Positions 1,963 through 27,961 of a stretch of 64,000 nt of DNA are shown piece by piece. Source of the stretch: Intrasporangiaceae bacterium. Lineage in GTDB: Bacteria; Actinomycetota; Actinomycetes; Actinomycetales; Dermatophilaceae. The notes beneath the pieces are model-generated. The model was not told the DNA's origin and did not search any database. It worked only from the letters and a program-made list of their open reading frames with translations. The DNA is taken from the NCBI GenBank assembly GCA_021324575.1, contig JAJPIW010000074.1, positions 1 to 64,000 on the forward strand, written 5' to 3'. Made by a program: the position numbers and the translations under genes. How positions within the stretch are numbered: the first letter of the stretch is position 1; each line of letters starts with the position of its first letter.

Positions 1963-2061
1963 CATGACGACCAAGGAATCCGGTGAGAGTCCGGAACGGT
2001 TGCGCCACTGTCAGTCCGTGGGGTGAGAACCCGCAGGCGAGTCAGACCCTTCGTCGTCATG
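1963..2061 (+). promoter_or_regulatory. Cobalamin riboswitch 1 (leader of cbtB-cbtA)
   Basis: The segment shows the conserved cobalamin-aptamer order: GGAATCCGGTGAGAGTCCGG, then the B12 box-like GCGCCACTGT, then GAGTCAGACC. A closing helix pairs CATGACGAC (1963-1971) with GTCGTCATG (2053-2061). The leader ends 46 bases before the cbtB ATG at 2107. In the known class, binding of adenosylcobalamin represses the downstream gene, here cobalt uptake. Ligand preference (adenosyl- versus methyl- or hydroxocobalamin) was not determined. Confidence 0.9.
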
Positions 2062-2106
2062 GGCCCTTTCCGCATCGTGGGACGCACACATCCCGTAGGA
2101 GGCACC

Positions 2107-2337
2107 ATGTCCAGTGCATCAGCGCCGAGCCTCGGCCGGTCCAAGCTCGCAGTCTCGCCGCAGGCCATCTCCGCCAGCCGCGCGGCCTTCGTCATCGGGG
2201 TGACGCTCCTCATGGCGTTGGCCGCCTACTACTTCGTCGGCGTCGACGAGGGCACGACCTCCGTCTTCGGCAAGACGCTCGTGCTCCACGAGTGGGTCCA
2301 CGACTCCCGCCACCTCCTCGGGTTCCCCTGCCACTGA
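2107..2337 (+). CDS. cbtB: Cobalt transporter small subunit CbtB
   Basis: A 76-residue membrane protein with one hydrophobic helix (about residues 26-44) and a histidine-rich C-terminus, HEWVHDSRHLLGFPCH. This is the CbtB pattern, where the terminal histidines are thought to bind cobalt. It partners with CbtA in a predicted cobalt uptake system. ATG 2107 is preceded by AGGAGGCACC, a strong ribosome-binding site; longer versions of the frame run into the riboswitch. It is the first gene of the riboswitch-1 unit, 17 bases before cbtA. Confidence 0.88.
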   Translation: MSSASAPSLGRSKLAVSPQAISASRAAFVIGVTLLMALAAYYFVGVDEGTTSVFGKTLVLHEWVHDSRHLLGFPCH

Positions 2338-2354
2338 CAGCACCGGGACCTCCG

Positions 2355-3278
2355 GTGGAACTTCGCATCGTTCTCCGGGGAGCCCTCTCCGGAGCCTTTG
2401 CCGGCCTGCTCGGCTTCGTCTTCGCGACGATCTTCGCCGAGCCGCTGATCGACCGGGCCATCACCTACGAAGCGGGTCGGACAGCCGTTCTCGACCAGCT
2501 CAACGTCGCGGCCGGGCGGACCACCTCCGCCGAGGGTCCGGAGATCTTCTCCCGCACCATCCAGTCGACCGTCGGCGCCGCGACCGGCGTGGTCGCCTTC
2601 TCGGCCGCCATGGGCGCGCTCGTGGCCGTCGCCTACGTCGTGCTGCACGGCCGGTTCGGCGTCCAGCCCCGCACGACGGCGTGGCTCATCGCGGGCTTCG
2701 GCTTCCTGGGCATCTACGCCCTGCCGTTCGCCAAGTACCCCGCCAACCCGCCCGCGATCGGTCACGACTTCACGATCGGCACCCGCGGAACCCTGTACCT
2801 GACCCTGGTCGCTGCCTCGCTGATCCTGCTCGGGCTGGCGTTCGCGCTGGCCCGCAGGCTGCAGCGAACGATGACCCAGGTCGCGGCAACGGTGACCGCC
2901 GCGGTCGCGTTCCTCGTCGTCTTCGGCGTCCTGGTCGGTCTGCTGCCGTCGCTGGGCCACCTGTCCGCGAACGTCGCGGCGAGCACCGACTTCGGCTTCG
3001 CCCGGGCCGCCACCGAGACCCCGCAGCCGATCACGAACATCCTGTCCAAGGCACTGACCATCGACGGCCGGCAGTACGCACCCGGCCAGATCGTCTACCC
3101 CGGCTTCGATGCGGACCTGCTCTGGAAGTTCCGCTGGTACGCCATCCTCAACCAGCTGCTCATCTGGACCACGATCGCCCTCGTCTTCGGCACTCTGCTG
3201 CAGCGGTTCCTCAGCGGACCGGCCGAGAAGCCGGCGCCTGCCGGGGGGCGGCCCGCCGACCTGGCAGCCGCGCGATAG
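2355..3278 (+). CDS. cbtA: Cobalt transporter CbtA
   Basis: A 307-residue polytopic membrane protein of the CbtA family. Hydrophobic helices fall at about residues 9-28, 73-97, 109-126, 146-166, 175-200 and 270-290. The N-terminus VELRIVLRGALSGAFAGLLG is typical of the family. GTG 2355 is chosen because it begins at this conserved N-terminus and follows GGGACCTCCG; the upstream frame overlaps cbtB and the riboswitch. With CbtB it is predicted to import cobalt for corrin insertion and would be shut off by B12 through riboswitch 1. The downstream FhuF-like gene begins within about 50 bases. Confidence 0.88.
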   Translation: MELRIVLRGALSGAFAGLLGFVFATIFAEPLIDRAITYEAGRTAVLDQLNVAAGRTTSAEGPEIFSRTIQSTVGAATGVVAFSAAMGALVAVAYVVLHGRFGVQPRTTAWLIAGFGFLGIYALPFAKYPANPPAIGHDFTIGTRGTLYLTLVAASLILLGLAFALARRLQRTMTQVAATVTAAVAFLVVFGVLVGLLPSLGHLSANVAASTDFGFARAATETPQPITNILSKALTIDGRQYAPGQIVYPGFDADLLWKFRWYAILNQLLIWTTIALVFGTLLQRFLSGPAEKPAPAGGRPADLAAAR

Positions 3279-10775: not shown

Positions 10776-10805
10776 GCCGACACCTTATGTGACATGATGT
10801 GCGCC

Positions 10806-10900
10806 GACGCAGGGTGAGGAATCCGGTGCGACTCCGGAGCGGTCCCGCCACTGTGAGCGCCCGGACCGACCGGTCGTGAGCCAGGACGTCGTCCTGCGTC
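10806..10900 (+). promoter_or_regulatory. Cobalamin riboswitch 2 (leader of the chelatase-cob operon)
   Basis: The closing helix pairs GACGCAGG (10806-10813) with CCTGCGTC (10893-10900). Inside are GGAATCCGGTGCGACTCCGG, the nearly canonical B12 box GTCCCGCCACTGT, and GTGAGCCAGGAC. GAGCC just inside the aptamer and GGCTC just after it (about 10903) could form an alternative pairing that acts as the switch. The first start codon of the operon is 73 bases further on. B12 binding should lower expression of the chelatase, cobO, cobB-cobC, cobA, cobS, cobU and cobD genes. Confidence 0.94.
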
Positions 10901-10972
10901 ACGGCTCCTCGGGACCCCGACCGGGCCATCGACGACCGGCGAGCGTGGTCACTCGCCAGGAGGATCGACTCC

Positions 10973-13036
10973 GTGCCCGGCTTCCCCTTCTCGGCCATCG
11001 TCGCCGCCGATGACATGGCGCTGGCGCTCGTCCTCACGACGGTCGCCCCCGAGGTGGGTGGGGTACTCGTCCGCGGCGAGAAGGGCACTGCCAAGTCGAC
11101 CATGGTCCGGGCGCTCGCCGAGGTCCTGCCCGATCAGCGCATCGTCGCGGACTGCCGCTTCGGTTGCGACCCCGCCCATCCCGACCCGACCTGCCCGGAC
11201 GGTCCGCACCGCGCCGATGCCGCTACCTCGACCCGGCCGGCCCGGCTCGTCGAGCTGCCGGTCGGTGCCACCGAGGACCGGGTCATCGGCTCCCTCGACC
11301 TGTCCCGTGCGCTGGGTGCCGGCGAGACCGCCTTCGAGCCCGGCCTGCTCGCCGGCGCGCACCGCGGCATCCTCTACGTCGACGAGGTCAACCTCCTGCA
11401 CGACCACCTCGTCGACCTCCTCCTCGACGCAGCCGCCATGGGCCGCAACACCGTCGAGCGCGACGGCGTCTCCATCTCGCACGCCGCCCGGATCGTCCTC
11501 GTCGGCACGATGAACCCCGAGGAGGGCGAGCTTCGACCGCAGCTGCTCGACCGCTTCGGGCTCACCGTCGAGGTGGCCGCGTCCCGCGAGCCGGCCGAGC
11601 GGGTCGAGGTCGTCCGTCGGCGACTCGCCTTCGACGCGGATCCGGACGGCTTCGCCGCGACGTATGCCGCACCGCAGGGCGACCTGCGCGACCGGATCCG
11701 CTCCGCGCAGGCGACCCTGCCGTCCGTTGCGCTGAGCGAGTGGGCACTCACCAAGATCGCGACGGTCTGCGCCGGGTTCGACGTCGACGGGATGCGCGCG
11801 GACCTGGTCACCGCCCGAGCGGCCCGCGCGCACGCCGCCTGGCAGGGCCGCACCGAGGTGACCCGCGAGGACATCCGGGTCGCCGCCCGGCTCGCCCTGC
11901 CGCACCGGCGCCGGCGCAACCCGTTCGACGCCCCGGGCCTGGACGAGGACCTGCTCGACGCCCTGCTCGGTGAGGACGAGCCGGATTCCGACCCCGAGCC
12001 GGACGCCCCGCCGCCGGGCGACCGCGCCGATGACCCCGACGCCGGTGTCGACGACGACCCGGAGTCGAGCGACCCGGCAGACACGACCTCACCGCCCCCT
12101 GCGGGGCCCGATTCACCGGACGCACCGTTCACGCCCGAGTCCCCTGACTCGCCTGACTCCCCGGAGCCGGCCGCCGAGCCAGTTGCTGAGCCGGAGCCGA
12201 GCCGCGCCGAGGCGCCGGTCACGGCCACGGTCGCCGCGGCATACGAGCCGTATCGCGCCCGCCGCCTGCAGGTCCGCGGAGTCGGCGAGGGCGAGGCCGG
12301 ACGGCGGAGCCGCGCCATCACCTCCTGGGGCCGCACCGTCGGCGCGGCCCCGATCGGCGCCGGCCGCCTCCACCTGCCGGCGACGATCACGGCCGCCGCG
12401 CCGCACCAGGGCCGACGCGGGCGAACCGACCGGGTGGTCCTCCATGCCGACGACCTGCGCCACCGGGTCACCCAGGGCCGCGAGGCCAACCTCGTCCTGC
12501 TCGCCGTCGACGCATCGGGCTCGATGGGCGCCCGGCAGCGGATGAGCGATGTCAAGACCGCCGTCCTGAGCCTGCTCGTCGACGCCTACCAGCGCCGCGA
12601 CCGGGTCGGTGTCGTGACCTTCCGCGGCGACGGAGCCAGCCTCGCGCTCCCCCCGACCTCCTCGGTCGAGGCCGCCGCCCGGTGCCTCACCGACCTCCCG
12701 CACGGCGGTCGGACCCCGCTCGCCGAGGGCCTGCGGACCGCGGCCCGGGTGCTCGAGCTGGAGCGGATCCGCGACCCGCGGCGTCGGCCCCTGCTCGTCC
12801 TCGTCACCGACGGGCGGGCCACGAGTGGCGCCGATGCCCTGGTTCGAGCCCGCTTCGTCGCCGACCGCTGGCGCGCGACCGGGGTCGACGCCGTCGTCGT
12901 CGACTGCGAAGCCGGCCGGTTCCGGATGGGACTGGCCGCCGACCTCGCCCACCGGATGGGCGCCGAGCACGTCCCGCTCGGCGAGGTGGCAGCCGCCAGC
13001 CTGGTCAGCGTCATCCGAGAGAGGAGGGCCGCCTGA
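10973..13036 (+). CDS. BchI/BchD-type chelatase fusion (putative cobaltochelatase subunits)
   Basis: A 687-residue fusion. Residues 1-325 are an AAA+ ATPase like magnesium-chelatase ChlI/BchI, with Walker A GEKGTAKST (35-43) and Walker B LYVDEVNLL (about 135). Residues about 330-415 are an acidic, Pro-rich linker typical of BchD proteins. Residues about 505-687 are a von Willebrand A domain with the metal site DASGS (about 514-518). In this pathway the protein probably drives cobalt insertion together with a CobN subunit; no cobN is in the window. GTG 10973 follows an AGGAGG-type site. It is the first gene of the riboswitch-2 operon, and its stop overlaps the cobO start by one base. Confidence 0.88.
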   Translation: MPGFPFSAIVAADDMALALVLTTVAPEVGGVLVRGEKGTAKSTMVRALAEVLPDQRIVADCRFGCDPAHPDPTCPDGPHRADAATSTRPARLVELPVGATEDRVIGSLDLSRALGAGETAFEPGLLAGAHRGILYVDEVNLLHDHLVDLLLDAAAMGRNTVERDGVSISHAARIVLVGTMNPEEGELRPQLLDRFGLTVEVAASREPAERVEVVRRRLAFDADPDGFAATYAAPQGDLRDRIRSAQATLPSVALSEWALTKIATVCAGFDVDGMRADLVTARAARAHAAWQGRTEVTREDIRVAARLALPHRRRRNPFDAPGLDEDLLDALLGEDEPDSDPEPDAPPPGDRADDPDAGVDDDPESSDPADTTSPPPAGPDSPDAPFTPESPDSPDSPEPAAEPVAEPEPSRAEAPVTATVAAAYEPYRARRLQVRGVGEGEAGRRSRAITSWGRTVGAAPIGAGRLHLPATITAAAPHQGRRGRTDRVVLHADDLRHRVTQGREANLVLLAVDASGSMGARQRMSDVKTAVLSLLVDAYQRRDRVGVVTFRGDGASLALPPTSSVEAAARCLTDLPHGGRTPLAEGLRTAARVLELERIRDPRRRPLLVLVTDGRATSGADALVRARFVADRWRATGVDAVVVDCEAGRFRMGLAADLAHRMGAEHVPLGEVAAASLVSVIRERRAA

Positions 13037-20310: not shown

Positions 20311-20409
20311 GCCCAGGGGAAGCCGGTCCGAGTCCGGCGCTGACCCGCAGCCGTAGGCCGCCCGCGACAGCTCGTATGCCGCGTGGCCGGTGAGCCGGAA
20401 TGCCTGGGT
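20311..20409 (+). promoter_or_regulatory. Cobalamin riboswitch 3 (leader of the B12 capture operon)
   Basis: The closing helix pairs GCCCAGG (20311-20317) with CCTGGGT (20403-20409). The core reads GGGGAAGCCGGTCCGAGTCC followed by GGCGCTGACCCGCAGCCGT, and GTGAGCCGGAATGCC follows; this is the other common form of the cobalamin aptamer. A short hairpin (TGCCGCC/GGCGGCA) precedes it. About 115 leader bases separate the aptamer from the first ATG at 20526 and could hold the expression platform. It controls a surface protein and an ECF transporter, not a biosynthesis gene. Confidence 0.9.
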
Positions 20410-20525
20410 CGGGCGAGCGGCTCCACTGACCGTCGAGGAACGCGGGACGGAGCCTGAGACTGCCGGGAGGCCGGCGGCTCGGGCCGATCGCCACGAACCG
20501 CTGCCCAGAAAGCAGGATCTCCCTC

Positions 20526-22109
20526 GTGAGACTCTCGTCCACCCGCCCCCTCAGCAGGGGCTTCGCCGTCGCGCTCGCTGCCGCCGCTCTGGCCCTGTCC
20601 CCCGCCGTCGCGCACGCTGACGACACCCCCACCGTGACGACCACCAGCCCGGCCCCCACGGTGACGACGAGCACCTCGTCGAGCTCGACGAGCACCTCCA
20701 GCGCGACAAGCACGTCATCCTCCGGGTCGACGAGCGCGCCCGCGACGACCGACGGCTCGACGACGTCGACGACCAGCCCATCCAGCGCGACCACGACGAC
20801 GAGCGCGACCGGCTCGGCGACGTCCACCACCTCGGCTTCGGCCGCGAAGTCGGCCGAAAGCCTTGTGCCGTTCGGCCGCGCGACGTCGCGGTTGGCCAAG
20901 GCGCTCCCCGGCGGCAGCTCGGCCCAGGCCGACTATGCCGCTGGGTTCGTGGCGCGCACGCTGGCCGCCGGGGACGACCACTACAACTACCCCGGGTCGA
21001 CCTACTTCGACGGGGGCAACACCATCGACGCCATCCTCGGACTCGACGGCGCGGGCGTCGGACGCGACCAGGCCGACGCCGCCTACGCCTACCTGGTGGC
21101 CCATCTCGGCGACTACGACGGCGCCAACGCCGCCTCGCAGTACGCCGGGCCGACCGCCAAGGCGCTGCTGGCCGTCGTCGTCCACGGTGGCGATCCGACG
21201 GACGTGAACGGCGTCAACCTGGTCCAGGCCCTCGATGACGCGCTCGGCGCCGTGGAGCCCGGCAGGTACTCAGACCTGCCCGTCGACTGTGGCTTCGCGC
21301 AGTGCGACTACTCCAACACCACCGGGCAGTCCCTCGCTCTCATCGCGGTGGGCCGGGCGACCGGCGAGATCCCCGAGGACGCGCTCCAGTTCCTCCTCGC
21401 CCAGCAATGCCCCGACGGTGGCTTCCGCGGCGACCCCAGCGCGGACGGCTGCACGAGCGACGCCGATGCGACCGCCTTTGCGGCCCAGGCCGTGCTCGGA
21501 GCGGGCGAAGACGACGCGGCCGGTGCCGCGCTCGACTTCCTCGCCGGGCATCAGCAGGCCAACGGCGGTCTGGTCAACCAGGACGGCCAGGTCAATGCCA
21601 ACACCACGGCCGTGGCCGGACAGGCCTTCGCGGCAGCCGGCATGACCGACGAGCTGACGGCCGCCCAGGGGTTCCTTGCCTCACTGCAGATGGACTGCAC
21701 CTTCGCGGCGGGACTTCGCGGCGGAGTCGCCTTCACCGCCGCTGACTACTCGGCCCTCAAGGCCGACCCCGGCAACGCCGATGCCCTCGGCCGGGCCGAG
21801 CGCGCGACGACTCAGTCCACCCTCGCGCTGGCCGGCGGCTCGTTGCTGGACGTCACGAAGGACGGGGCGACTGCGGCGACCCCGGCTCCGAGCTGCTCCA
21901 CCGCGACCTCGACGAGCTCCACCTCATCGACGACCACCCACGCAGGGGCCCCCGGGACGAGGACCCCGGCGGCGCCCGCGACCGACCCCGGCTCGTTGGC
22001 GTTCACCGGTGCGCAGGTGTGGCCGCTCGCCCTCATCGCGCTCGCACTCATCCTGGTCGGCGCTCTGGCTCTGGTCAGCACACGCCGCCGTGGCGGCGCG
22101 CACGCGTGA
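20526..22109 (+). CDS. Sortase-anchored alpha/alpha-toroid protein, intrinsic factor/transcobalamin alpha-domain-like
   Basis: A 527-residue exported protein. Residues 1-32 are a signal peptide (cleavage likely after AVAHA). Residues about 33-115 are a Ser/Thr stalk. Residues about 125-440 form an alpha/alpha-toroid related to prenyltransferase/terpene-cyclase folds, with repeated units such as CPDGGFRGDPSADGC and QQANGGLVNQDGQ. A second Ser/Thr-rich stretch leads to the sorting signal LAFTG (491-495), then a hydrophobic helix and an RRR tail. LAXTG is the class E sortase signal, so the protein is probably joined to the cell wall. The same fold forms the alpha domain of intrinsic factor and transcobalamin. 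Directly behind a cobalamin riboswitch and before an ECF importer, it is most likely a B12 capture protein; binding is inferred. Confidence 0.82.
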   Translation: MRLSSTRPLSRGFAVALAAAALALSPAVAHADDTPTVTTTSPAPTVTTSTSSSSTSTSSATSTSSSGSTSAPATTDGSTTSTTSPSSATTTTSATGSATSTTSASAAKSAESLVPFGRATSRLAKALPGGSSAQADYAAGFVARTLAAGDDHYNYPGSTYFDGGNTIDAILGLDGAGVGRDQADAAYAYLVAHLGDYDGANAASQYAGPTAKALLAVVVHGGDPTDVNGVNLVQALDDALGAVEPGRYSDLPVDCGFAQCDYSNTTGQSLALIAVGRATGEIPEDALQFLLAQQCPDGGFRGDPSADGCTSDADATAFAAQAVLGAGEDDAAGAALDFLAGHQQANGGLVNQDGQVNANTTAVAGQAFAAAGMTDELTAAQGFLASLQMDCTFAAGLRGGVAFTAADYSALKADPGNADALGRAERATTQSTLALAGGSLLDVTKDGATAATPAPSCSTATSTSSTSSTTTHAGAPGTRTPAAPATDPGSLAFTGAQVWPLALIALALILVGALALVSTRRRGGAHA

Positions 22110-22936
22110 CGGCGGCTCTGCGTCACCTCCTCGCCGCCGGGCTCCTGCTCGGCGGTGGGGTGGTCACCCTGGCACCGGCGACCCCGGCGTATGCCGCGGC
22201 CTGCTCCACCACCTCGGGCGTCACCGTGGTCATCAACTCATCAAGGTCCTGCGCTGCGTCCGGCGGAAGCGCACTGTCGGTGCTGAGGCGGGTGGCCAGC
22301 ACGACGATGGTGCAGACCGACCCCGGGTTCCTCTGTCGGATCAACGGCGCCCCGTCCGACCAGGCGTGCGTCCGGGACCCTCCTGGCAGCGCGTACTGGG
22401 CCTTCTTCACCGCTACGCGCGGTGGGTCCTGGCACTACGCGACGGTGGGTGTGGGTGGCTACAACCCGCCCGCCGGCACGGTGATCGGCTTCTCCTTCGG
22501 GGCCGGGGCCGCCCCCGCGGCCTCGGTCCCGCCGAGGCTTTCGACGCCTACCCCGAAACCCAAGCCGACGCCGAAGCCGACGGTCAAGGCGACACCGAAG
22601 CCATCGGCATCGGGGTCACACTCGACCTCGGCGCAGCAGTCGACGGCCGGCCACTCCGCCACCCGCCCCGTCGTCGGCTCCTCGAGCAGGACGTCGCCCC
22701 CCGGAACGAGTGCCAGCTCGAGCGCAGCGACAACGTCCACCATCACGTCATCCACCACCGCCACCTCGACGCCCTCCACGGCGGGCGGAGCGGTCGCCGT
22801 GGGTCCGATCGAGCCGACCGCCAACACCTCGTCCACCGGGTCGGCCTGGCCGTTCGCGGGCGGGGTAGCCGTCGTCGCCGCCCTCGGCGGGCTCGCGGCA
22901 TACGGTGCCCGTCGTCGTCGACTCGGTCAGCACTGA
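22106..22936 (+). CDS. Membrane-anchored DUF4430 protein, transcobalamin beta-domain-like
   Basis: A 276-residue exported protein whose GTG overlaps the preceding stop by four bases. A signal peptide ends near residue 30 (PAYA). Residues about 33-130 match the DUF4430/transcobalamin C-terminal pattern: SALSVLRRV, FLCRINGAPSDQAC, GSAYWAFFTA, HYATVGVGGY and GTVIGFSFG. Then come Pro/Lys and Ser/Thr-rich linkers (about 140-240) and a C-terminal membrane helix (about 248-266) followed by RRRR, so it should sit on the outer face of the membrane. In transcobalamin and intrinsic factor this beta domain caps B12 held by the alpha domain. Here the two domains are separate adjacent proteins. No sortase motif is clear in this one. 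Confidence 0.8.
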   Translation: MTAALRHLLAAGLLLGGGVVTLAPATPAYAAACSTTSGVTVVINSSRSCAASGGSALSVLRRVASTTMVQTDPGFLCRINGAPSDQACVRDPPGSAYWAFFTATRGGSWHYATVGVGGYNPPAGTVIGFSFGAGAAPAASVPPRLSTPTPKPKPTPKPTVKATPKPSASGSHSTSAQQSTAGHSATRPVVGSSSRTSPPGTSASSSAATTSTITSSTTATSTPSTAGGAVAVGPIEPTANTSSTGSAWPFAGGVAVVAALGGLAAYGARRRRLGQH

Positions 22937-22948
22937 CCGGCGCCGTCG

Positions 22949-24031
22949 TTGGCGCCGGCCCTGCCCCGAGCCCTGCACCCCGTCGCCTGGTGGGTGTGGG
23001 CGATCGGGCTCGCGGTGGCGGCCAGCCTGACCGCCAACCCGATCCTCCTGGCCCTCATCCTGGCCGTCGTCACCCTCGTCGTGACCAACCGGAGGACCGG
23101 CTCGCCGTGGGCGAAGGCCTTCCGGCTGTACGTCATCCTCGGGGCGTTCGTGGTCCTGAGCCGCCTCGTCCTGCACCTGCTCGTCGGGCTGAAGGTCGGT
23201 GAGCACCGGTTGTTCTGGCTGCCCTCGGTCACGCTGCCGTCCTGGGCCGCCGGGATCAATGTCGGCGGCACCGTCTACCTGGAAGGGCTGCTCGCGGCCG
23301 GCCTCCAGGGGCTGCGCCTCGCGACGATGATCGTGTGCATCGGCGCGGCCAACGCCCTGGCCAACCCCAAGCGCCTGCTCCGGGCGCTCCCGGGGTCCCT
23401 GCAGGAGATCGGCACTGCCGTCATCGTGTCGGTCACGGTCGCTCCGCAGCTGGCCGAGAGCGTCCAGCGGGTGCTGCGAGCCAGGCAGCTGCGCGGCCAG
23501 AACGCCGGTGGGCTCCGCTCGGTGCGCCAGGTCGCGCTGCCCGTCCTCCAGGACACCCTCGACCGGTCGCTGTCGCTGGCCGCGGCGATGGACTCCCGCG
23601 GCTACGGTCGTCGGGTGACCGAGTCCAGCCAGGAGCGCAGGTGGGGGTCGGCCGCGCCCTACGCCTCGTTCGCCGGGCTGATCGGCGCGAGCATCGGGCT
23701 CTTCGGGCTGCTCTCGGCCGACACCCCGCCCGTCCTCGGGGCGCCGCTGCTCGGTCTCGGGCTTGTCCTCGCCGTGGTCGGGCTGCGCCTCGGCGGCCGC
23801 GGCGTCCACCGGACCACCTATCGCCCGGACCCCTGGTCGTGGCCCGAAACCCTCACTGCCGCAACGGGTCTCGCTGCTGTGGTCGGGAGCATCGTCGCCT
23901 CGCACCTCGACCCCCAGTCCATGTCGATGCCGGTCCTTCCGCTCGGCTGGCCGGGCCTGCCCTGGGTCGCCGCGGCCGGCATACTCCTCGCTGCCCTGCC
24001 CGGGTACCTCACCCCCGAGCCGCCCCGATGA
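22949..24031 (+). CDS. ecfT: ECF transporter transmembrane subunit EcfT
   Basis: A 360-residue integral membrane protein with the two EcfT coupling motifs, ARQLRG (178-183) and DSRGYG (215-220), which carry the Ala/Ser-Arg-Gly signature that contacts the ATPases. Hydrophobic helices occur at about 12-45, 60-80, 105-135 and after 240. The start is TTG 22949, 12 bases after the DUF4430 gene. Its stop overlaps the ATPase start by four bases. The C-terminal extra helices make it longer than the usual 250-residue EcfT, as in the predicted actinobacterial B12 system CbrV/CbrU/CbrT type. Confidence 0.88.
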   Translation: MAPALPRALHPVAWWVWAIGLAVAASLTANPILLALILAVVTLVVTNRRTGSPWAKAFRLYVILGAFVVLSRLVLHLLVGLKVGEHRLFWLPSVTLPSWAAGINVGGTVYLEGLLAAGLQGLRLATMIVCIGAANALANPKRLLRALPGSLQEIGTAVIVSVTVAPQLAESVQRVLRARQLRGQNAGGLRSVRQVALPVLQDTLDRSLSLAAAMDSRGYGRRVTESSQERRWGSAAPYASFAGLIGASIGLFGLLSADTPPVLGAPLLGLGLVLAVVGLRLGGRGVHRTTYRPDPWSWPETLTAATGLAAVVGSIVASHLDPQSMSMPVLPLGWPGLPWVAAAGILLAALPGYLTPEPPR

Positions 24032-25800
24032 ACCCCGCCATCCGCTTCGACCAGGTCACGGTCACGTATGCCGGGGAGGCCACTCCGGCGCTGCGCGAGG
24101 TCGACCTGGCCATCGAGGAGGGCGAGCTCGCGCTCGTCGTCGGCCGGACCGGCAGCGGCAAGTCGACCCTCCTCGGCGCGGTCAACGGCAACGTCCCGCA
24201 CTTCACCGGGGGCACCCTCGCCGGCCGGGTGACGGTCTGCGGACGCGATACCCGCACCCACCGGCCGCGCGACCTGGCCGACCTCGTCGGAGTCGTCGGT
24301 CAGGACCCGGTCGCCGGGTTCGTCACCGACACGGTCGAGGAGGAGCTGGCCTACGGGATGGAGCAGCTGGCGCTCCCCCCCGAGGTCATGCGCAAGCGGG
24401 TCGAGGAGACCCTCGACCTGCTGGGCATCGCCGACCTGCGTGCCAAGCCGCTCGCCCAGCTGTCCGGCGGCCAGCAGCAACGGGTCGCCATCGGGTCGGT
24501 GCTCACCGCCCATCCGCGCGTCCTCATCCTCGACGAGCCGACCTCGGCGCTCGACCCCACCGGCGCCGAGGAGGTGCTGGCGGCGATCACGCGGCTGGTG
24601 CACGACCTCGGGGTCACCGTCGTCCTCGCCGAGCACCGGATCGAGCGGGTCATCCAGTACGCCGACCTCATCGTCCACGTCTCACCCTCCGGCGTGGTCA
24701 CCTCCGGCCTGCCGGCCGCGATGATGGCGACCTCCGACGTCGCGCCGCCGATCGTCGAGCTCGGCCGGTATGCCGGGTGGTCGCCTCTGCCGCTCTCGGT
24801 TCGTGACGCCCGCCGGGCCGCCGCCCCGCTCCGGGCTGCCCTCCCTGCCGTACCCCGGCCCGCCCTCGCCACGTCACGATCTGTCCCAATTGTTCCGGCA
24901 GTCACCGTCACTACTGGAACAATTGGGTCAGATCGTGACGGGGGCTTGGTCGCACGCGACGTCGTGGTCCGGCACGGCGATCTGGTGGCCGTCGCCGGGG
25001 TGTCGCTCACACTGTATGCCGGAGAGGTCACCGCGCTCATGGGCCGCAACGGCGCGGGCAAGTCCAGCCTCATGTGGGCCCTCCAGGGCACCGGCTCCCG
25101 AACCTCCGGCCGGGTCGCCGTAACCGCCACACCCCACTCTCAGTCACCGGGTCCGGATCGGCGCACCGGGGCCTCTGCGTCGGGCCCACCGTCGGACCCT
25201 CCCCCGGCCCCGCTCGACCCGGCGGACCTGTCGGCCGCCGATCGGCGACGCCTCGTGGGGCTCGTGCCCCAGTCGGCGTCGGACCTGCTGTACCTCGACA
25301 GCGTCGAGCAGGAGTGCGCCCAGGCCGACCGGGAGAGCCACGCCGCCGCGGGGACCTGCGCCGCCCACCTCGAACGGCTCGCACCCGGCATACCTCCCGA
25401 CCGTCACCCGCGCGACCTGTCCGAGGGGCAGCGGCTCGCCCTCGTCCTCGCCATCCAGCTCACCGCGGACCCACCCATCGTGCTCCTCGACGAGCCGACC
25501 CGCGGCCTCGACTACGCCGCCAAGTCCGCCCTCGCGAGCGCCCTGTCCGAGCTGGCCGCCGGCGGCCGGACCGTGCTGCTGTCGACCCACGACGTCGAGT
25601 TCGTCGCCACCGTCGCCGACCGGGTCGTCGTCATGGCCGAGGGCGACATCGTTGCCGACGGCCCGACCACCGAGGTCGTGGTGGCCTCGCCCGCGTTCGC
25701 CCCGCAGGTGGCCAAGATCCTCGCCCCGCTCCCCTACCTGACCGTCGACGACGTCCGCCGCACTCAGACGGCCACCGACACCTCGCCTACCGAACCATGA
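24028..25800 (+). CDS. ecfA: ECF transporter double ATPase (EcfA-EcfA' fusion)
   Basis: A 590-residue fusion of two ABC ATPase domains. The first (about 1-250) has Walker A GRTGSGKST (39-47), signature LSGGQQQ and Walker B VLILDEPTSALD. The second (about 308-570) has GRNGAGKSS, the variant signature LSEGQRLALVLAI and IVLLDEPTRGLD. They power an ECF importer with EcfT and the S-component. A Pro/Ala-rich linker (about residues 255-307) contains a 69-base palindrome, and a second low-complexity insert follows the second Walker A. ATG 24028 overlaps ecfT and the stop overlaps the S-component. Fused EcfA pairs are known; the palindrome is the unusual part. Confidence 0.92.
   Translation: MNPAIRFDQVTVTYAGEATPALREVDLAIEEGELALVVGRTGSGKSTLLGAVNGNVPHFTGGTLAGRVTVCGRDTRTHRPRDLADLVGVVGQDPVAGFVTDTVEEELAYGMEQLALPPEVMRKRVEETLDLLGIADLRAKPLAQLSGGQQQRVAIGSVLTAHPRVLILDEPTSALDPTGAEEVLAAITRLVHDLGVTVVLAEHRIERVIQYADLIVHVSPSGVVTSGLPAAMMATSDVAPPIVELGRYAGWSPLPLSVRDARRAAAPLRAALPAVPRPALATSRSVPIVPAVTVTTGTIGSDRDGGLVARDVVVRHGDLVAVAGVSLTLYAGEVTALMGRNGAGKSSLMWALQGTGSRTSGRVAVTATPHSQSPGPDRRTGASASGPPSDPPPAPLDPADLSAADRRRLVGLVPQSASDLLYLDSVEQECAQADRESHAAAGTCAAHLERLAPGIPPDRHPRDLSEGQRLALVLAIQLTADPPIVLLDEPTRGLDYAAKSALASALSELAAGGRTVLLSTHDVEFVATVADRVVVMAEGDIVADGPTTEVVVASPAFAPQVAKILAPLPYLTVDDVRRTQTATDTSPTEP
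24872..24940 (+). repeat. In-frame inverted repeat inside the EcfA fusion
   Basis: Arms of 31 bases (24872-24902 and 24910-24940) pair with three mismatches around a seven-base loop. The arms contain the AT-rich block CCCAATTGTTCC and its complement GGAACAATTGGG, strikingly unlike the GC-rich flanks. The frame stays open and encodes about residues 282-304 of the inter-ATPase linker. The sequence looks like an inserted palindromic element rather than ordinary coding DNA. Confidence 0.88.
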
Positions 25801-26612
25801 GCCGTACCAACGCGATTCGCCTCCGCTGGCGGTCCACGCTAGCCGTCGCTCTCGTCTCGGTCGCCGGCCTGATCGCCTTCCTCTGGCCGCTCTTCGCCGG
25901 CCCACACTCCTCGATCACCCGGAACGGCGAGGCCCCGCTCGTCTTCGCGCTCATGCTCCCTCTCCTGCTCGCCGTCGTCCTCGCCGAGATCGCCGAGGGC
26001 GGCCTCGACGTCAAGGCGGTGGCCATACTCGGCGTCCTGTCGGCCGTCGGCGCCGCCCTTCGACCGCTGGGTGCCGGCACGGCCGGGCTGGAGACCGTGT
26101 TCTTCCTGCTCGTGCTCGGCGGCCGGGTGTTCGGTGCCGGCTTCGGCTTCGTCCTCGGCGCCACGACCCTGTTCGGCTCGGCGCTCATCACCGGTGGCGT
26201 CGGCCCCTGGCTGCCGTTCCAGATGATCGGCGCGGCGTGGATCGGGCTGGGCGCCGGCCTCTTGCCGCCCGCCCGGGGGCGCTGGGAGCTCGCTCTGCTC
26301 GCGGCATACGGGGGGATCGCCGGGCTGGTCTACGGGGCACTCCTCAACTTCTCGTTCTGGCCGTTCGCGACCGGCGGCGGGACAGGGGTGTCGTTCGTCC
26401 CCGGCGGCCCGATGCTGGACAACCTGCACCGGTTCGTCGTCTTCTCGGTGACGACGTCCCTCGGCTGGGACATCGGCCGCGCCCTGACCAACGTCGTCCT
26501 CATCGTCCTCACCGGGCGGGCCGTCCTCGGCGCACTCCGTCGAGCCGCCCGCAAGGCCGCGTTCGACGCGCCCGTCACCTTCGCCGAGCCACCCGCCACA
26601 ATGGGCAGGTGA
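25797..26612 (+). CDS. ECF transporter substrate-binding (S) component, probably for cobalamin
   Basis: A 271-residue membrane protein with about six hydrophobic helices (near residues 12-33, 45-63, 72-90, 98-120, 128-150 and 225-245). GGRVFGAGFGFVLGATTLF and FQMIGAAWIGLGAGLL resemble ECF S-components predicted for B12 in actinobacteria (CbrT-like). It should bind the vitamin and dock on EcfT. Substrate assignment rests on the cobalamin riboswitch and the upstream transcobalamin-like genes, not on any residue seen here. ATG 25797 overlaps the ATPase stop, and the stop overlaps the following oxidase gene. Confidence 0.82.
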   Translation: MSRTNAIRLRWRSTLAVALVSVAGLIAFLWPLFAGPHSSITRNGEAPLVFALMLPLLLAVVLAEIAEGGLDVKAVAILGVLSAVGAALRPLGAGTAGLETVFFLLVLGGRVFGAGFGFVLGATTLFGSALITGGVGPWLPFQMIGAAWIGLGAGLLPPARGRWELALLAAYGGIAGLVYGALLNFSFWPFATGGGTGVSFVPGGPMLDNLHRFVVFSVTTSLGWDIGRALTNVVLIVLTGRAVLGALRRAARKAAFDAPVTFAEPPATMGR

Positions 26613-27961
26613 CCGACTTCCGCGGCCAGGTCGACGACCCGGACATCAAGGCGACGTATGCCGTGGACCAGTCCGTGGCCACTCCGCCGGAGGGCGACTT
26701 CACCCTCGTCCGGGCCCGCGACCTGGCCGACGTCGTGGAGGTCCTCACCGAGGCGCAGGCTCGCGGCATACCCGTCGTGCCGCAGGGCGCCCGCAGCGGC
26801 CGGGCCGGTGGCGCGGTGGCGGTCGAGGGCGGCATCGTGCTCAACGTCATGGGCCTGGCCGGGGTCAGCACGGTCGACGATGTCGAGGGCATCGCGGTCT
26901 GCGGGCCGGGAACGGTGACCGCGGACCTCAAGCAGGCCGCGGCCGCCCACGGCCTGTTCTACCCGCCGGACCCGGCATCGGTCGCGTTCTGCTCGGTCGG
27001 CGGCAACGTGGCGACCAACGCCGGCGGGCTGTGCTGCGTCAAGTACGGCGTGACGGCCGACCACGTCCGCGGCCTGCAGGTCGTCCTGGCCGGCGGCGAG
27101 GTGATCCGGACCGGGCGGCATACGGCCAAGGGCGTAGCCGGGCTGGACCTCACCGGACTCTTCGTCGGTTCGGAGGGAACTCTCGGCGTCGTCACCGAGG
27201 TGGTGGCCTCGCTCCTGCCCGCACCGGCGCCCGCGCTCACCGCCCTCGCCACCTTCGACTCCCTCGACGCCGCCTCGCGCGCCATCGTCGCGCTCCGCCG
27301 TGACCCGCACCGGCCGAGCATGGCCGAGCTCCTCGACGCCTTCTCCATCAAGGCGGTCCAGCAGCTGGGCGACTACGGCTTCCCGTCCGACTGCGCCGCC
27401 GTCCTCCTCGTCCAGTCCGACCGCGACGGGCACACGCGCGAGGACGTCCAGCGCTACGGCGACCTGCTCTCGACCGCCGGCGCGACCGAGATCGCGGTCG
27501 CGGACGACCCGGCCGAGGCCGAGGCCCTGATGGCGGGGCGCCGGGTGGTCAGCACCGCGCTGGAGGGCCACGGGGCCCGGATGGTCGAGGACGTGTGCGT
27601 CCCGATCGCGCGGCTCACCGAGCTGGTCGAACGGTCCCAGTCCGTATGCCGGTCGCTGGGGGTCGAGGTCGCGTTCTCCGGCCACGCGGGAGACGGCAAC
27701 CTGCACCCGTCGCTCTTCTTCGACGCCGGCGACCCGGCCAGCCGGGAGCGGGCCGAGGCCGCCTTCGGGGAGATCGTCGACCTCGCGTTGGGGATGGGCG
27801 GCACGATCACCGGCGAGCACGGAGTCGGCTCGCTCAAGGCGCCCTGGCTCCGTCGCGAGCTGGGTGACGCCGAAATCCAACGCCAGCAACGGATCAAGGC
27901 CGTCTTCGACCCGGCCGGGATCCTCAATCCCGGGCGCGTGTACCCACCTTTGGCAGGATGA
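26609..27961 (+). CDS. FAD-binding oxidase, GlcD / D-lactate dehydrogenase type
   Basis: A 450-residue flavoprotein of the FAD-linked oxidase superfamily. The N-terminal PCMH-type FAD domain shows VVPQGARSGRAGG, GGNVATNAGGLCCVKYG and GLFVGSEGTLGVVTEV. The C-terminal domain shows AFSGHAGDGNLHPSLFF and TITGEHGVGSLKAPWL, typical of GlcD/Dld enzymes that oxidise 2-hydroxy acids such as glycolate or D-lactate. GTG 26609 overlaps the S-component stop by four bases, so it is probably in the riboswitch-3 operon; the longer frame is inside the S-component. Why a hydroxy-acid oxidase is coupled to a vitamin importer is unclear. Confidence 0.88.
   Translation: MTDFRGQVDDPDIKATYAVDQSVATPPEGDFTLVRARDLADVVEVLTEAQARGIPVVPQGARSGRAGGAVAVEGGIVLNVMGLAGVSTVDDVEGIAVCGPGTVTADLKQAAAAHGLFYPPDPASVAFCSVGGNVATNAGGLCCVKYGVTADHVRGLQVVLAGGEVIRTGRHTAKGVAGLDLTGLFVGSEGTLGVVTEVVASLLPAPAPALTALATFDSLDAASRAIVALRRDPHRPSMAELLDAFSIKAVQQLGDYGFPSDCAAVLLVQSDRDGHTREDVQRYGDLLSTAGATEIAVADDPAEAEALMAGRRVVSTALEGHGARMVEDVCVPIARLTELVERSQSVCRSLGVEVAFSGHAGDGNLHPSLFFDAGDPASRERAEAAFGEIVDLALGMGGTITGEHGVGSLKAPWLRRELGDAEIQRQQRIKAVFDPAGILNPGRVYPPLAG

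Follow-up and report, generated by a model that had tools for sequence, protein, structure and literature searches.

What does a bacterium that makes vitamin B12 gain from an operon, lying 3′ of its B12 synthesis cluster, that encodes two surface proteins and an importer under a cobalamin riboswitch? The question is raised by a 64,000-nucleotide stretch (hereafter the window) of contig JAJPIW010000074.1 from an Intrasporangiaceae bacterium (assembly GCA_021324575.1), in which five coupled genes encode a toroid protein with a wall anchor (P1), a membrane-anchored protein with a predicted beta domain (P2), and the EcfT, double EcfA and S-component of an energy-coupling factor (ECF) transporter. 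The original prediction for this locus was that P1 and P2 are the two halves of the animal B12 carriers made as separate surface proteins, which close over B12 and pass it to the S-component. With the two folds on separate chains, fused in relatives, and a cobalamin aptamer and dedicated ECF importer beside them, we consider it probable that the operon encodes a two-chain, transcobalamin-like corrinoid capture pair that feeds a dedicated group I ECF importer under cobalamin riboswitch control.

Operon structure and riboswitch control

The genes for P1 (20526-22109), P2 (22106-22936), EcfT (22949-24031), a fused EcfA-EcfA′ double ATPase (24028-25800) and the S-component (25797-26612) all lie on the plus strand. 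The P1/P2, T/A and A/S junctions are 4-base overlaps and a 12-base gap separates P2 from ecfT, confirming the five coupled genes and their boundaries as originally predicted. A sense cobalamin aptamer stands 5′ of the first gene, as expected for a member of a cobalamin riboswitch regulon. Its core (20317-20404, plus strand) matches RF00174 at model positions 46-168 with 32.4 bits against a gathering score of 31.5, which is marginal when taken alone. Recurrence strengthens it: a cobalamin-type aptamer lies upstream in 35 of 38 related operons, every one of the 35 in the sense orientation. These 38 upstream regions, from the host's family and order, held 19 cobalamin riboswitches at the Rfam gathering score and 16 weaker cobalamin-type matches (E 0.0002 to 0.48), one of them of the AdoCbl-II type. 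Of 14 loci in more distant families, 10 have a gathering-score riboswitch directly 5′ of whichever P1 or P2 gene opens the operon. We take the riboswitch that was predicted to head the operon to be real, on both its score and this recurrence.

Extra P1 or P2 genes with their own cobalamin riboswitches were also seen outside the main operon, at 1911-3046 of L154 (minus strand), 10914-11671 of L168 (at 11264) and 10922-11665 of L178 (minus strand), where L-numbers label individual related loci; the extra gene in L154 is a P1. These private riboswitches tie P1 and P2 themselves, and not the transporter alone, to B12. At 750-847 of L216, 5′ of the operon in L097, an AdoCbl-II type aptamer scored 32.2 bits, under its gathering score of 36.5, and judging by this match the L097 relative appears to use that type in place of the usual class.

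Structure prediction of P2 and P1

P2 (276 amino acids) carries a signal-like segment and, at its C-terminus, a transmembrane segment. Its ectodomain was modelled with AlphaFold2 from an alignment of 83 sequences, giving a predicted local distance difference test score (pLDDT) of 84 and a predicted template modelling score (pTM) of 0.78. When this model was searched against the whole PDB with Foldseek, the first 14 matches were, without exception, transcobalamin or haptocorrin, and the matches include 5np4, the isolated transcobalamin beta domain solved with cyanocobalamin. VIA-align gave Z scores of 9.6 to 10.5 over 87-89 residues, with root-mean-square deviations of 2.5-3.3, for 15 chains, namely 14 transcobalamin, haptocorrin and intrinsic-factor entries and the Ruminococcus gnavus protein 3u7z, whereas the best unrelated fold reached a Z of 5.6. 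The P2 profile found no true match among PDB sequences. Most of its relatives (81 of 83) match the NCBIfam SCO2322 family (NF040672), a family name that states no function, while the window protein itself scores 25.3 bits, far under the curated cut-off of 85. At the level of predicted fold, P2 is a divergent relative of the transcobalamin-type beta domain, for which the sequence evidence is suggestive only.

P1 (527 amino acids) has an N-terminal signal-like segment and a C-terminal LAFTG motif followed by a transmembrane segment and a basic tail, and the genome holds one sortase gene, in keeping with a sortase substrate of the LAXTG type; an LxTG-type tail is found in 40 of 109 P1 reading frames. 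AlphaFold2 predicts, with confidence, an alpha/alpha6 toroid (pLDDT 93, pTM 0.92), and the predicted wall-anchored toroid with its sorting signal stands. The folds most like it are those of squalene-hopene and drimenyl cyclases, with GH76 also among the closest; transcobalamin appears in Foldseek from rank 21 (E 4e-4), and no transcobalamin is among the matches listed in the VIA top 50. P1 profiles likewise match terpene cyclases and complement and macroglobulin toroids, with transcobalamin absent among the matches listed. The Cobalamin_bind family PF01122 has no match in the window P1 and weak matches in 8 of 66 relatives (best 2.4e-4), although one fused relative, L119, matches it co-linearly (186-258 to 179-251). 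Against NF053823, the SCO2321 family, P1 gives an E-value of 2.7e-17, and its 62.8 bits are far under the curated cut-off of 300.

Of the 27 positions conserved in at least 90% of P1 family members, 14 lie near inner-helix N-termini (p 0.001; outer helices p 1.0), which, by the geometry of such toroids, would form the mouth of the cavity. A conserved S-N-x-F-x-Q in P1 resembles TNYYQ, the corrin-contact motif of haptocorrin (PMC4350170); their spacing is off by one residue, and we mention the likeness as a lead only. The casting of P1 as a carrier half draws mainly on genomic context.

The ECF module

EcfT is of the CbiQ type (PF02361, E 3.2e-13). EcfA carries a pair of ABC domains (two ABC_tran stretches, with matches to ECF_ATPase models). 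The S protein has about six transmembrane segments, and while the window protein itself has no Pfam match, 9 of 14 relatives match PF12822 (ECF_trnsprt, the ECF transporter substrate-specific component; best 6.4e-11), which bears out the importer components that had been assigned to these three genes. T, A/A′ and S are encoded together, as in group I ECF transporters. An invariant histidine is absent from the S family, which argues against a CbiM-type cobalt component.

Conservation and gene fusions

Genomes were searched with a family model and a P2 ectodomain query, and with S. In genomes of the host's family, the search from P2 returned the order P1-P2-T-A-S in nearly every locus read. The search from S in named genomes gave more than 500 relatives, of which 80 were kept; these span Streptomyces, Micromonospora, Amycolatopsis, Saccharothrix, Kribbella, Nocardioides, Acidimicrobiia and others. 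Sixty S loci had 7 kb or more of sequence 5′ of S; all 60 have T and A, 59 have P2 and 52 have P1. A gene order that recurs across the phylum in this way excludes chance. Furthermore, P1 and P2 share one open frame in 8 of the 80 loci, in both orders, with the toroid first in L117, L119 and L133 and the beta domain first in L103, L115, L135, L153 and L171.

A secreted protein encoded beside CbiO/CbiQ-type genes is also what true DUF4430 genes of other Actinomycetota specify, since 20 of 29 such loci have EcfT/EcfA-like genes within 1.5 kb. We also checked whether homologues lie mainly beside non-B12 transporters, and found instead that linkage and riboswitches hold phylum-wide.

Corrinoid capture and its alternatives

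We propose that P1, anchored in the wall, and P2, anchored in the membrane by a long flexible stalk, are the two carrier halves as separate chains, which most likely enclose a single corrinoid, with the mouth of the toroid on one side and the beta domain on the other. The pair would raise the local corrinoid concentration at the cell surface and release the corrinoid to the S-component, with EcfT-EcfA powering inward transport. High intracellular cobalamin would act on the riboswitch to shut the operon off. The system and its regulation are well supported by what was observed, namely the genes and their conserved order, the cobalamin-type aptamer, the export and anchor signals and the predicted folds; that P1 and P2 bind a corrinoid, that they do so jointly and pass it on to S, and that riboswitch control runs in this direction are plausible steps that we infer. 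Quite possible, and advanced here as a tentative proposal, is the fullest form of the idea, an animal-type carrier divided between wall (P1) and membrane (P2) that passes one corrinoid across the wall to a dedicated S and so fills the place of a substrate-binding protein, which an ECF system usually does not have.

Several points weigh against this proposal. Corrinoid binding by P1 and P2 is deduced from predicted folds and context. At the sequence level, none of the 83 P2 relatives matches PF14478 (DUF4430) at an E-value of 0.1, and hhalign matched P2 weakly to 16 genuine DUF4430 domains over 75 co-linear columns (E 0.001; probability 21%, against 0.1% for the toroid control). The expected membrane-anchored DUF4430 protein therefore kept its C-terminal transmembrane segment and its fold, and lost DUF4430 as a sequence assignment. 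The modelled fold of P1 is nearer to terpene cyclases than to transcobalamin and would not by itself indicate B12. Comparison with the carriers returned the beta-domain fold for P2, at a Z of about 10 against 5.6 for the next fold, and for P1 a toroid that is not specific to transcobalamin, so that the split-carrier idea holds in its beta-domain fold, toroid fold, ECF module, B12 regulation, linkage and fusions, and falls short in the specificity of the P1 fold. Seven loci with P2 have no detectable P1 nearby, and the two are thus not always found side by side. The S profile found no true match among PDB sequences and no similarity to any solved S-component was found, and judged on these comparisons the substrate of S is not assigned by homology. 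Finally, it is not obvious why a host that makes B12 should need an importer; such a host may use the system for salvage, to regain B12 that has leaked out, or to take B12 up when making it is costly.

Part of this evidence would also suit P2 alone as the ligand-binding accessory of a corrinoid ECF importer, with P1 some other wall protein, such as a docking partner for P2, a store or a cell-wall enzyme. P2 is the more constant neighbour (59 of 60 loci, P1 in 52), the P1 fold is generic, and the isolated transcobalamin beta domain was solved with cyanocobalamin (5np4), yet the eight fusions in both orders, the extra P1 gene of L154 with its own cobalamin riboswitch and the conservation at the P1 cavity mouth all make this unlikely. 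If P1 were instead an enzyme acting on surface molecules, of a terpene cyclase, glycoside hydrolase or prenyltransferase-like kind, its link to the importer would be incidental and its closest folds, the squalene-hopene and drimenyl cyclases and GH76, would be accounted for. The class II cyclase motif DxDD is present in only 3 of the 66 family members, however, no column in the 66 has a majority of histidine, and P1 is linked to P2 and the riboswitch phylum-wide, so we regard an enzyme as very unlikely.

Other readings concern the cargo. A corrinoid precursor or breakdown product, such as cobinamide or an incomplete corrinoid, in place of cobalamin is a somewhat unlikely alternative, and one that overlaps with a capture pair for cobalamin, which allows for related corrinoids. 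It draws on the S genes of L141, L161 and L173 in actinobacterial metagenome-assembled genomes, which are followed at near-constant distance by CobU and CobS, the enzymes of the last cobinamide-finishing steps, a neighbourhood that counts for the capture pair as well and suggests cobinamide salvage; the window operon itself adjoins a B12 synthesis cluster, and CbrT takes cobinamide besides cobalamin (PMC5997447). A transcobalamin-type pair, by contrast, suits a complete corrinoid, as established for the animal proteins only. Import of cobalt by a CbiMQO-type system, with the riboswitch reflecting cobalt supply for B12 synthesis, is disfavoured and extremely unlikely. EcfT is of the CbiQ type and cobalamin riboswitches also control cobalt transporters, but the S family, lacking an invariant histidine, matches the PF12822 vitamin S-components and not CbiM, P2 has a predicted cobalamin-carrier fold, and a CbtA-type cobalt transporter is encoded separately at 1983-3278 of the window. 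The two-chain capture pair is our preferred explanation.

Comparison with known systems

In the animal carriers, one cobalamin is held between the toroid and the beta domain (PMC1796856). P1 and P2 resemble transcobalamin, haptocorrin and intrinsic factor in their predicted alpha/alpha6-toroid and beta-domain folds (Z of about 10 for P2) and in being secreted, and differ in that they are separate chains anchored to wall and membrane and encoded with an ECF importer. Pfam does not detect the sequence similarity of P2 to the animal proteins, that of P1 is very weak, and the window pair lacks PF14478, PF01122 and the single-chain layout.

The idea of a bacterial toroid/beta-grasp B12 scavenger has a precedent. 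In the work of Burroughs et al. (2007), transcobalamin-like SLBB proteins of bacteria, which frequently have toroid domains and wall anchors and are encoded next to CbiO/CbiQ, were predicted to scavenge B12 or precursors of it, and the animal carriers were proposed to have been acquired from Gram-positives (PMC1796856). The bacterial counterpart of the animal carriers that was originally predicted for our locus is supported as an idea, and its novelty is not. The window system is like those of Burroughs et al. in being a predicted surface B12 scavenger adjacent to CbiO/CbiQ genes, and several of theirs are also anchored in the Gram-positive manner. Theirs, however, are fused toroid-SLBB proteins, with the toroid N- or C-terminal to the SLBB domain, or paralogous SLBB pairs, and the hosts listed are low-GC Gram-positives, planctomycetes and euryarchaea in which key B12 synthesis enzymes are usually missing (PMC1796856). 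The branch seen here belongs to high-GC Actinomycetota, is mostly split, occurs in a B12 producer and is missed by the DUF4430 model. New here are the actinobacterial branch itself, which Pfam does not detect, the split form that it usually takes and the fact that a B12 producer has it.

ECF-CbrT of Lactobacillus delbrueckii is a proven cobalamin importer that also takes cobinamide (PMC5997447) and, like the window system, is a corrinoid ECF importer with T, A, A′ and S-component; unlike the window S, which has a dedicated module, CbrT shares its ECF module with other S-components and needs no extracellular carrier. The acI Actinobacteria have an ECF module behind cobalamin riboswitches, likewise a predicted actinobacterial cobalamin transporter, in hosts without B12 synthesis, and the part of that paper drawn on here does not mention surface carrier proteins (PMC5301498). 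BtuG of Bacteroides is reported to be a surface lipoprotein that captures B12 for an importer, in a Gram-negative system (PMC6143338). For the SCO2321 and SCO2322 families (NF053823 and NF040672), which P1 and relatives of P2 match and from whose curated cut-offs the window proteins fall far short, we found no paper on the function of SCO2321-SCO2325 in the literature searched; the ECF family may have been assigned earlier in the ECF-transporter literature.

Genomic setting

The operon lies 3′ of a B12 synthesis cluster with TP methylases, CbtA, a chelatase-type protein, BtuR/CobO, CobBC, CobA, CobS, CobD and CobK, and the host is a B12 producer, with CobN in its genome and many cob genes. A single Peripla_BP_2 protein was found in the genome, which leaves little room for a BtuFCD system. 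In the S-component search the nearest named relatives of the host were Knoellia, Nostocoides, Phycicoccus and Janibacter. A second and stronger cobalamin riboswitch (42.4 bits, window 10778-10910) lies 5′ of the genes for the chelatase-type AAA/VWA protein (10973-13036) and BtuR/CobO.

The five-gene operon held as predicted, except that a sixth gene was omitted, for a GlcD-type FAD oxidase (26609-27961, plus strand), which shares 4 bases (GTGA, 26609) with the S gene. A gene of this type is also found 3′ of S in relatives L062, L064, L065, L067, L101, L104 and L105, and on this basis it may belong to the operon; it is likely a co-transcribed member in this genus group. Within the EcfA gene, a near-perfect 75-base palindrome with 37-base arms (24869-24943; RNA fold −54.6 kcal/mol, z −11) sits in frame in the linker that joins the two EcfA halves. 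Its arm, with the core CTGACCCAATTGTTCC, has 34 copies in the genome (17 forward and 17 reverse; control 0), and it is a dispersed palindromic element, here within a gene.

Implications

If the two-chain capture pair holds true, it would give a function to phylum-wide, uncharacterised surface proteins, the SCO2321 and SCO2322 families, and would describe an ECF transporter with extracellular binding proteins of its own. It would also provide a testable bacterial relative of both halves of human intrinsic factor and transcobalamin, and would bear on the capture and sharing of B12 within microbial communities, B12-making species among them.

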